This document shows positions 2,901 to 50,923 of a DNA stretch of 64,000 nt, in pieces (positions within the stretch are counted from its first letter, which is position 1; the number at the start of each line of letters is the position of its first letter). The DNA is from Porphyromonas levii DSM 23370 (GTDB taxonomy: Bacteria > Bacteroidota > Bacteroidia > Bacteroidales > Porphyromonadaceae), in contig NZ_KB904239.1 in assembly GCF_000379925.1 (NCBI RefSeq), positions 1,605 to 65,604 of the forward strand. Direction: 5' to 3'. Below the pieces are notes generated by a model, which worked only from the letters and a program-made list of their open reading frames with translations, searched no databases and was not told where the DNA came from. A program made the position numbers and the translations under genes.

Positions 2901-4614
2901 GTTAGCAATGGGTGTGTGGCTGGTGGCGATTCTTTCGTCACCAGCACTACTTGCTCAGGACTATGTGGAGCTGGGCGATCCTAAACCGCACGATAGTGCG
3001 CAGGTATGGGATAAGGGTTTGCAAGAAAAGATGGCTGTGGAGTGGGGTTCGACTAATACCCGCTATCCTAAGCACGATCTCCCACGAGAGATAAGGGGTA
3101 AGAGTGTAGAACTATCGGCGTGGCGAGGAGAGCGGGTTAATGCCCAAGCGGTACTGTATACTCGGGTGCCCCTTCATCAAGTAAAGGTGGAAGTGAGTGA
3201 CCTGAGAGGTGAGCAAGGTTTAATACCTTCGGATGCTATACGTACCCACTTCGTACGCTATGTGATGAGTGATGAGCTAAATCCTGAAGGTTCGGGCAGC
3301 GGAGGCTGTGGTCAGAGACCCGACAAGAGTCAGTGGGACTCTATCCTTGTGGCTGACGTACTAGATAGTATTGCAACTCGGGATGTGCAGGCATATACCG
3401 TCCAACCCATTTGGGTACAAGTGGCTGTGCCGAGCGAGGTGGCTCCAGGACTATATACGGGGAGTATTGGAGTAGCAGGACATAAGTTGACTCTAAAAGT
3501 AAGGGTAGGGGTGAGAGAGCTTCCTCCACCTTCGGAGTGGCAACAGCATCTTGACTTTTGGCAAAACCCTTATGCCGTAGCACGATATCATCAGGTTCCG
3601 CTGTGGAGTAAGGCACATTTCGAACTGATGAAGCCCCTATTTGGTATGCTACGTGATTCAGGTCAGCGGGCTATCACAACAACTATACTGTACAAGCCTT
3701 GGAATGGACAGACCGAGGATCACTACGATAGTATGATTGGTCGTACTCTTAATATTGATGGTACTTGGCGCTATGATTATACGGTATTTGATAGATGGGT
3801 GACCTTTATGCTCGAGGAAGTAGGTATAGATGGGATCATTAGTTGCTACAGTATGATACCTTGGCAGCTTAGCTTCGACTACTACGACCAAGCTACCTCT
3901 AGGGTAGAATACGTAAAGGCAAAACCAGGAGATAAGGCATATACTGACTATTGGTACCCCTTCCTGAAAGACTTTGCTAAGCATCTAAGAGAGAAAGGGT
4001 GGTTCGACCGCACTATGATTGCCATGGATGAGCGCCCTATGGAGGCTATGCGTGAGGCTATCAAGATTATTAAGAGTGCCGATGCTGACTTTAAGATATC
4101 GCTAGCAGGCAACTATCATGAGGAGATTATTGATGACCTTTACTATTGTAGCATTCCCTATGGACACAAGTTCCCCGAGCAAAAGCTCAAAGAGCGAAGA
4201 GCAAAGGGACAGATCAGCACGGTGTATACTTGCTGTACGGAGGCTTTCCCCAATATCTTTACCTTCTCGCCACCTGCCGAGGCTTCATTTACTGCAGTCT
4301 ATGCACTAGCCGCTAATTACGATGGCTATCTGAGGTGGGCTATTAATAGTTGGGTCAAGGATCCATTGAGGGATAGCCGTTTCCGCTCATTTGCCGCTGG
4401 TGATCCTTACACTATCTATCCAGGGGCAAGGAGCAGTATTCGTTTCGAGAAGTTCCTCGAAGGCAAACAGATGGCTGAGAAGGTACTTATCCTCAGGCGA
4501 GAGGGCTACAATCCACACCTAGAAAAGCTCCTCGAGAGATTTGTCTCCAATGAGCGACAAGAGAGTGCAGAGGAACTGATAGAGGCGCTTGGGGTACTTA
4601 TCAATCAGTTGTAA
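2881..4614 (+). CDS. Secreted GH123-type glycoside hydrolase (DUF4091)
   Basis: The product, about 577 aa from this start, resembles the DUF4091/GH123 catalytic family, whose characterised members are beta-N-acetylgalactosaminidases. I chose the ATG at 2881 because it gives a clean signal peptide (MRLLLDK, hydrophobic core, SSPALLAQ). An upstream in-frame ATG at 2863 and a later one at 2908 are possible. The N-terminal half is beta-rich. The catalytic region follows HLDFWQNPY, and Asp383-Glu384 in AMDERPM fits the family's Asp-Glu pair. The start overlaps the GH84 gene by 20 bp, which suggests translational coupling. Together the two enzymes would trim GlcNAc and GalNAc from glycoconjugates. 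The 3' end overlaps the convergent MATE gene by 10 bp. Confidence 0.8.
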   Translation: MRLLLDKLAMGVWLVAILSSPALLAQDYVELGDPKPHDSAQVWDKGLQEKMAVEWGSTNTRYPKHDLPREIRGKSVELSAWRGERVNAQAVLYTRVPLHQVKVEVSDLRGEQGLIPSDAIRTHFVRYVMSDELNPEGSGSGGCGQRPDKSQWDSILVADVLDSIATRDVQAYTVQPIWVQVAVPSEVAPGLYTGSIGVAGHKLTLKVRVGVRELPPPSEWQQHLDFWQNPYAVARYHQVPLWSKAHFELMKPLFGMLRDSGQRAITTTILYKPWNGQTEDHYDSMIGRTLNIDGTWRYDYTVFDRWVTFMLEEVGIDGIISCYSMIPWQLSFDYYDQATSRVEYVKAKPGDKAYTDYWYPFLKDFAKHLREKGWFDRTMIAMDERPMEAMREAIKIIKSADADFKISLAGNYHEEIIDDLYYCSIPYGHKFPEQKLKERRAKGQISTVYTCCTEAFPNIFTFSPPAEASFTAVYALAANYDGYLRWAINSWVKDPLRDSRFRSFAAGDPYTIYPGARSSIRFEKFLEGKQMAEKVLILRREGYNPHLEKLLERFVSNERQESAEELIEALGVLINQL

Positions 4615-11322: not shown

Positions 11323-11775
11323 ATGAATGCGATAAAAAGAATGATCTTCCCACTGGCTATCTTAGCTATGTGCCTAGGAGGTGTTGCCAAAGTTTTCGCT
11401 CAAAGTGAGCAGGAGACTATCGAAGCTAATCTTAAGATTTTTCTAAAAGGTCTTGAGTGTAATGAGGGGCAAATTATGATAGCGGTATTTGATTCCCCAG
11501 AATTTTTTCTCCTGAAGCCAATCAAAGCAATTGCTATTCCTGCAGATAGTATATCTTCCATCCCAGTATCACTAAATCTTCCTAGAGGAATATATGCTAT
11601 CGCACTATTTCAGGACGCCAATAACAACGGAATATTAGATATTGGAAACAACGGTATCCCTACAGAGAAGTATGGTTTTAGCAATGATGTTGAACCTGTG
11701 ACGGGTCCGCCTAGTTTTAAGGATTGTTCCTTTGAAATAGAGGAAGACACTACCGTCATGATATCTATGAGATAG
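11323..11775 (+). CDS. Exported DUF2141 protein
   Basis: The 150-aa product has a signal peptide (about 1-26, ending VFAQ) and a compact beta-rich domain matching DUF2141. Signatures are LPRGIYAIALFQDANNNGILD and IPTEKYGFSND, followed by PPSFKDCSFEI. The function of DUF2141 proteins is not established. The DANNNGILD loop resembles a calcium-binding Asp/Asn-rich loop. The gene lies 40 bp after the winged-helix regulator and may be part of that operon or have its own promoter. A very large palindrome begins 10 bp after its stop. Confidence 0.82.
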   Translation: MNAIKRMIFPLAILAMCLGGVAKVFAQSEQETIEANLKIFLKGLECNEGQIMIAVFDSPEFFLLKPIKAIAIPADSISSIPVSLNLPRGIYAIALFQDANNNGILDIGNNGIPTEKYGFSNDVEPVTGPPSFKDCSFEIEEDTTVMISMR

Positions 11776-11784
11776 CAATATCAG

Positions 11785-11943
11785 GCCCTAGATTCCGCAA
11801 AGTATGCGTTAGCCCCTGATTATTAGTAGGTGGCGCTATTGATAATTAAAGCCCTGTATTCTCCTTGAATACAGGGCTTTAATTATCAATAGCGCCACCT
11901 ACTAATAATCAGGGGCTAAAGCACACTTTGCGGAATCTAGGGC
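11785..11943. repeat. 159-bp near-perfect palindrome (77-bp arms)
   Basis: The left arm 11785-11861 and right arm 11867-11943 are reverse complements over 77 bp with only two mismatches, around a 5-nt centre (TCCTT). The innermost part (AAAGCCCTGTATTC paired with GAATACAGGGCTTT) looks like an ordinary bidirectional terminator. The outer arms extend it far beyond any normal terminator. It could be a foldback duplication or a miniature mobile element. Confidence 0.95.
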
Positions 11944-12184: not shown

Positions 12185-13105
12185 ATGAGCAACAAGAGAG
12201 AGAGATTATTCCTCAAGGGAATGGGTACGGCTATCGTAACCCCTTTTAAGCAAGATAAAAGTGTAGATTATAATACATTAGAGGCTCTAGTAGAGCGACA
12301 AATAGAGTGTGGTGCCGACTTCCTCGTCGTTTTGGGTACTACTGCTGAGACTCCCACGCTTAGCACGGCTGAGCAAGATGTCATTATCCATACTTGTGTA
12401 AAGGTCAATAATGGGCGAGTTCCTCTTGTCGTTGGGGCTTCGTCCAATGGCACTTTGAGGACAATTGATAGGCTCAAGACCATGCCAACAGAGGGCGTCG
12501 ATGCTGTGCTCGTTGTATGCCCCTACTATAACAAGCCCTCTCAGGAGGGACTCTTTCAGCACTTCAAGGCTGTCTCTGAGGCTTCTCCGCTCCCTGTTAT
12601 ATTATATAATGTGCCTGCACGTACAGCGGTGAATATGCTTCCAGCCACTACCCTGCGATTGGCTACAGAGTGCCCTAATATTATAGGAATTAAGGAGGCC
12701 AGTGGGATTGTAGGGCAGATAGACTTGGTGTCTAAGCAACGCCCTAAGGACTTCTTTGTGCTTGCGGGAGATGATACCATCACATTCCCACTTATGGCGA
12801 TGGGTGTAGATGGCGTCATCTCTGTAATTGGCAATGTATTCCCAAAGCAATTTGGGCGCATGGTGCACCTAATGCAGGAGAAGCGATATGAGGAAGCGTT
12901 GGTGATTCATCACTTCTTTAAGGAGCTTTATGGACTACTTTTTGTGGATGGTAATCCTGTGGGGGTGAAGTGCGCTATGGCTCAGTTGGGACTTCTAGAG
13001 GAAGTTTTGCGATTGCCACTTGTGGAGATGCAAAGCCCTAATAGAGAGAAGATGGTGGAGGAGATGAAGTTACTATGTGCTTCGGAGATTATTAAAGGAG
13101 AATAA
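12185..13105 (+). CDS. dapA: 4-hydroxy-tetrahydrodipicolinate synthase
   Basis: The 306-aa protein condenses pyruvate with aspartate semialdehyde, the first committed step to diaminopimelate and lysine. It shows the DapA motifs GTAIVTPF (14-21), GTTAE at 51-55, the active-site Tyr141 in LYNVPART, and the Schiff-base Lys170 in GIKEASG. Length is normal for the family (about 290-300 aa). It heads a run of four genes with short gaps or overlaps (permease, nitroreductase, DUF4954). Those have no obvious lysine role, so co-transcription may be housekeeping. Confidence 0.95.
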   Translation: MSNKRERLFLKGMGTAIVTPFKQDKSVDYNTLEALVERQIECGADFLVVLGTTAETPTLSTAEQDVIIHTCVKVNNGRVPLVVGASSNGTLRTIDRLKTMPTEGVDAVLVVCPYYNKPSQEGLFQHFKAVSEASPLPVILYNVPARTAVNMLPATTLRLATECPNIIGIKEASGIVGQIDLVSKQRPKDFFVLAGDDTITFPLMAMGVDGVISVIGNVFPKQFGRMVHLMQEKRYEEALVIHHFFKELYGLLFVDGNPVGVKCAMAQLGLLEEVLRLPLVEMQSPNREKMVEEMKLLCASEIIKGE

Positions 13106-50606: not shown

Positions 50607-50923
50607 TCCTATCGAGTATTTGCAAACTTAACTATTTTTTGAGACTATAGCACTTGCGGTATTGACCCTTTGTCTTTTGTCTCTTCCTCTTTCTGTAGGT
50701 ACTATTTCCAGCCAGGCTCTAGGTATATCAGAGAAAGTCCCTCTAGGGAGAAACTGGAGTCCCTCTAGGGAGAAACTGGAGTCCCTCGCCGGAGAGACTT
50801 TTTCTACTCAGTAGTGCGCCATCTTATTTTCTATAGAGAGAGGAACTCTCTAGGCATGATCTTTTTTATCTATTTGGGTAATTATTAGTAAATTGCAGGT
50901 CGAATCACCTGATTTGCTATAGT
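50607..50923. other. 317-bp divergent intergenic region with repeats
   Basis: It separates the minus-strand transporter from cardiolipin synthase. It contains the minus-strand -7 box TAAGTTTG (50623-50630), two and a half inverted copies of the 22-bp repeat (50738-50803), and a TAGAGAG/CTCTCTA hairpin (50834-50852). No gene and no clear cls promoter were seen. Confidence 0.55.
50738..50803. repeat. Inverted copies of the 22-bp repeat
   Basis: Two complete units (50738-50759 and 50760-50781) are identical to each other and match the reverse complement of unit 7 of the array at 1-176. A degraded third follows (TCCCTCGCCGGAGAGA). Two intergenic sites about 50 kb apart therefore share the family. 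Confidence 0.9.

Follow-up and report, generated by a model that had tools for sequence, protein, structure and literature searches.

A 155-bp palindrome of Porphyromonas levii composed of two ends of an IS1380-type insertion sequence, probably a rearrangement scar

Nearly precise excision of Tn10 is credited to Foster et al. 1981, as cited in PMC5991714, and replication copy-choice work is summarized in PMC12524634. These two sources underlie our comparison, and Tn10 details that go beyond them are general background. IS1247, a member of the IS1380 family, has a length of 1672 bp, IR 16/13, and a DR of 5 bp (PMC3281130). Bacterial MITEs have been reviewed (PMC10969869), and a MITE of P. gingivalis is the subject of PMC4596501. 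An interrupted palindrome of 246 bp folds into a hairpin each time E. coli replicates it and is cleaved by SbcCD; an 85-bp palindrome was a shorter test case in the same work (PMC3315005).

The palindrome described here lies in a stretch of 64,000 nucleotides from P. levii DSM 23370 (contig NZ_KB904239.1, positions 1,605 to 65,604), hereafter called the window. As the initial annotation had claimed, its two arms (11785-11861 and 11867-11943) are 77 nt long and differ at only two pairs of positions, 11804/11924 and 11808/11920; they are 97% complementary and are separated by a loop of 5 nt. The RNA fold predicted for the palindrome had an energy of -139.5 kcal/mol, as compared with a mean of -39.3 (sd 4.2) for shuffled sequences. 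Because this corresponds to z = -23.6 and 0 of 200 shuffles folded as well, a chance origin is excluded. Within the window, no other close inverted repeat of such size was present, and an Rfam search of the window returned no match. Other copies in the genome share the sequence only as far as CCTAG/CTAGG, and the two terminal bases of either arm (11785-11786 and 11942-11943) are therefore flank, leaving a repeated element proper of 155 bp (11787-11941). On its left, a gene for a DUF2141 protein (11323..11775, plus strand; Pfam PF09912, E 2.1e-26) ends 11 bases before the element. Further left lie others, including a MarR-like gene, and on the right a dapA-like gene (12185..13105, plus strand) is the first of a block; both of these genes were named from their sequences alone. 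A separate feature of the window is a 22-bp tandem repeat (CTCCAGTCTCTCCCTAGAGGGA and variants) at its start (1-220), of which an inverted partial copy is found 50 kb away (50719-50799).

A search of the genome with one arm, as advised in the initial annotation, gave the answer to what the arms are. Each is assignable to the transposase-upstream end (IRL) of a multicopy IS1380-type insertion sequence (IS). Used as a query, the palindrome hit 19 loci besides its own, each aligned to one arm and the loop region (93 nt, positions 64-156) at 94-100% identity; another 16 short matches covered its tip alone. Of the 19 other IRL copies, 18 are no more than some 370 bases away from a contig end, the usual effect of a multicopy element on a short-read assembly. 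Read inward from unique flank, the IS consists of the 16-bp terminal repeat CCTAGATTCCGCAAAG, about 46 nt, a hairpin, an A/T-rich stretch, and the transposase frame, which begins MAKVQFISTNRKTAIGGAQFF. The hairpin, 62 nt in from the end, has a 13-bp stem and reads AAGCCCTGTATTC-AAGGA-GAATACAGGGCTT. IRR ends carry the same 16-bp repeat with a different interior. A 98-residue N-terminal transposase query matched positions 2-94 of 419 of the NCBIfam IS1380 model NF033539 with E 8.5e-7 and 27.9 bits, below the curated cut-off of 180 for a full protein; the query was a fragment assembled from the end of one contig (C51) and a relic in another (C59), as no contig was seen with the whole gene. The same fragment had no match in Pfam. 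The relic is a decayed IS copy (L058, 3087-3550, C59) in which an IRL, the hairpin, and a frameshifted transposase start are followed by unrelated sequence.

A genome-wide scan that allowed up to 2 mismatches found 40 sites of the terminal repeat and 0 of a reversed control, and CCTAGATTCCGCAAAG, exact or with one mismatch, was seen at 19 IRL and 17 IRR ends. A 5-bp partner among the IRR flanks existed for 14 of the 19 IRL flanks (21 pairs, versus 0.85 in shifted controls) and a 6-bp partner for 9 of the 19 (control mean 0.85 pairs); individual pairings are ambiguous, as target words are shared by several IS ends. The target duplications appear to be either 5 bp, such as TCTGA for L011/L036, or 6 bp, such as CTAGCG for L013/L038, a mixture suggesting that the transposase staggers its cuts loosely. 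An intergenic palindromic repeat, TTCCTAGGAATAAATTT, occurs genome-wide (e.g. L018, L026-L035, and L037-L041) with 99 exact matches over both strands; it had 0 matches in the 11 relatives searched. Since 15 of 17 IRR flanks of the IS, and only 7 of 19 IRL flanks, are located within or next to TTCCTAGGAATAAATTT, the IS seems to insert at this repeat in a preferred orientation. In the closest relative (G004), an IS with the same terminal repeat was located downstream of the counterpart of the MarR-like gene (L084, about 3337-3604, C28).

The IRL copies fall into two subtypes. Type B has the tip GTATGCG (L005, L007-L011, and L013-L018), and type A has the tip GTGTGCT (L002-L004, and nearly L006); the tips of L012 and L019 are mixed between the subtypes. 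The left arm (11787..11861, plus strand), which starts with the terminal repeat and runs through the 5' half of the hairpin stem, is identical at positions 1-75 to the 12 type B copies and departs from them only at position 76, the first loop base. Loop and right arm (11862..11941, minus strand), read inward, are identical to the type A copies L002, L003, and L004 at all 80 positions compared. Both arms end in CCTAGATTCCGCAAAG, at 11787..11802 on the plus strand and at 11926..11941 on the minus strand, as located by the genome scan at up to 2 mismatches. The natural IS hairpin, which other IS ends also carry ahead of their transposase start, occupies 11849..11879 with its stem AAGCCCTGTATTC and the loop TCCTT on the plus strand. 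The two arm mismatches (11804 A and 11808 G on the plus strand) are exactly the two sites that separate subtypes A and B. Two random substitutions on identical arms would give exactly both subtype states with a probability of about 4e-5. Because the arms match subtypes B and A and their mismatches fall on the diagnostic sites, the palindrome has two parents, which are joined within the left half of the 13-bp stem (11849-11861). It unites two different IS copies and is not a foldback of one. The closeness of the mismatches had initially been taken as a sign of one old event. The palindrome does look like the product of one event; the mismatches, as diagnostic parental differences, were there from the start.

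The derivation of the arms from two different subtypes also spoke against a template switch at a single hairpin, one of the origins first considered. A variant, in which one IS copy underwent a foldback template switch and one arm then acquired the sequence of the other subtype by gene conversion, appears very improbable. The stem is a natural foldback point, and the mosaic tips of L012 and L019 indicate that conversion may occur. However, a foldback would have copied the outer flank as well and produced identical inverted flanks, whereas the actual flanks differ from base 3 on, and a second event would be needed to account for the two subtypes.

We consider it probable that the palindrome is a rearrangement scar, left by a deletion at the 13-bp stem that stripped a pair of inverted IS copies of all sequence between the two hairpins. 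IS1380-type copies of subtypes B and A would once have been inverted with their transposase-upstream ends outward. Both ends would have carried the natural 13-bp hairpin. As this holds the stem word together with its reverse complement, the inverted copies would have presented AAGCCCTGTATTC in direct orientation. Slippage during replication, or a template switch, would then have caused a deletion between these direct repeats, aided by pairing of the inverted copies, and both transposase genes would have been lost with any sequence separating them. The expected remnant runs left flank, IRL(B), stem, loop, stem, inverted IRL(A), right flank, and a deletion between the two direct stem words would yield exactly the observed sequence, loop included. 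We infer both the parental arrangement of two inverted IS copies and the deletion, as opposed to another rearrangement, with its enzymology. Identity of both arms to present-day IS copies suggests that the event was recent.

No target duplication of 4, 5, or 6 bp surrounds the palindrome (flanks TCAGGC and GCGCGA), as expected if its two ends came from two separate insertions. None of the IRR flanks matched the left flank, which fits a deletion without proving one. For the right flank there is a possible 6-bp target-duplication partner, L138 (flank GCGCGA), which fits copy L005 as well; a partnership with L138 would suggest a translocation or an inversion rather than a simple deletion.

The flanks also bear on the idea of a miniature inverted-repeat element, raised at the outset, according to which a unit with two IRL ends was moved to this site by the IS transposase. 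The terminal repeat is perfect at both ends, which makes the palindrome in principle a possible substrate of the transposase. Nevertheless, this origin is very unlikely, because the palindromic form exists in a single copy in the genome and has no target duplication. Numerous genomic copies with target-site duplications, which the initial annotation had named as the mark of a known kind of mobile element, were thus found for one arm, as the IS end, but not for the palindrome. Scanning of a public genome collection for paired terminal repeats at the spacing of the palindrome gave no match, nor did an exact scan with a conserved 25-mer of the arm in a public collection from which the genome itself or very near ones may be left out. 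A plasmid collection returned only one short, chance-like match, and no palindrome of the same kind was seen in the relatives. The palindrome might also be a newborn miniature element, both of its ends being predicted transposase substrates, although we regard this as quite unlikely. If true, it would reveal a one-step origin of palindromic MITEs from inverted IS copies via a built-in hairpin.

Gene order was compared with that of relatives. The dapA block to the right of the palindrome is syntenic in G004, G006, G010, and G011. In G004, the genes of the MarR side are on a different contig from dapA, and no left-side genes were seen in the dapA neighborhoods fetched from the relatives. The DUF2141 gene was found among the relatives only in G003 and G008, on contigs other than that of dapA. 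Thus, the left and right genes were not found adjacent in the relatives examined, a supporting observation that is weak by itself because gene order is scrambled across the genus anyway. The gene upstream of dapA in G006, G010, G002, and G007 is here on contig C55, and in four other genomes it is likewise apart from the dapA contig; the neighbors of dapA in G004 are here on C97 and C44. With the dapA neighbors of relatives scattered over other contigs in this way, the ancestral gene order is not recoverable.

The lack of adjacency in relatives would also agree with an assembly or amplification chimera, in which IS ends of different molecules were joined via the 13-bp stem, so that the DUF2141 and dapA sides are not truly adjacent. 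Such an artifact would be in keeping with a draft genome of 124 contigs with N calls, in which the same IS stands at contig ends for 18 other IRL ends. Yet the shared word is only 13-14 bases long, and assemblers normally accept only longer overlaps or k-mers. Moreover, the element lies inside an 85-kb contig, its 155 bp are short enough to be spanned by ordinary reads, and just one such join exists among about 20 copies. A chimera is therefore unlikely in our view.

As for function, the terminator-like core noted initially was confirmed and corresponds to the natural hairpin of the IS. On either strand, CTTTAATTAT comes after it as a weak T-rich tail. A terminator scan gave one terminator-like site on the plus strand versus 0.7 expected, which is no evidence in itself. 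The present role of the palindrome is probably passive; at most, it would terminate transcription in both directions between dapA and the DUF2141 gene. A related IS of G004 that shares the terminal repeat also has a hairpin between its end and the transposase, but one with another sequence (AAGGGTGAGA...TCTCACCCTT). The hairpin that recurs in these ISs plausibly insulates the transposase from outside transcription. With regard to stability, the genome encodes an SbcD homologue (C32, 166.7 bits, above the cut-off). At 155 bp the palindrome falls between the 85-bp and 246-bp cases of E. coli, and its presence alone does not call for special protection.

These results indicate that a long bacterial palindrome can be traced to two identifiable parents when the resident IS has subtypes, and that a hairpin near one IS end can serve as a fusion point for deletions. 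They also provide a worked example for the sifting of palindrome findings, in which a genome search with one arm should come first.

The parent IS resembles the IS1380 family in its 16-bp terminal repeat, its target duplication of 5 bp (also 6 bp), and possibly the N terminus of its transposase (a fragment match below the cut-off), whereas the palindrome, unlike IS1380 members, consists of two left ends and lacks both a transposase and a target duplication. With MITEs it shares its short length, the absence of coding sequence, and terminal inverted repeats from a resident IS; it differs from them in being single copy, without target duplication, and fully palindromic from two IRLs. Like REP and other intergenic palindromic repeats it is an intergenic hairpin, but it is not repeated as a palindrome and can be traced explicitly to an IS end. 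A 29-bp palindrome from a different genus of the family, CCTAGATTCCGCAAATTGCGGAATCTAGG (L106, G036:C37:8087-8115), consists of two terminal repeats back to back and is possibly a smaller remnant of the same sort. As far as the sources cited above describe it, nearly precise excision of Tn10 likewise involves inverted IS copies, deletion between short repeats in internal inverted repeats near the IS ends, and a short remnant. In the palindrome, too, the fusion lies inside a short repeat that is present in both parent IS copies in direct orientation. In contrast to Tn10, an IS1380-type element is involved, the remnant has 155 bp and its history is deduced solely from its sequence, and flanks without a target duplication point to two independent insertions rather than one composite transposon. 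There is no sign of a new kind of genetic system; the palindrome is an unusually legible example of an ordinary process.
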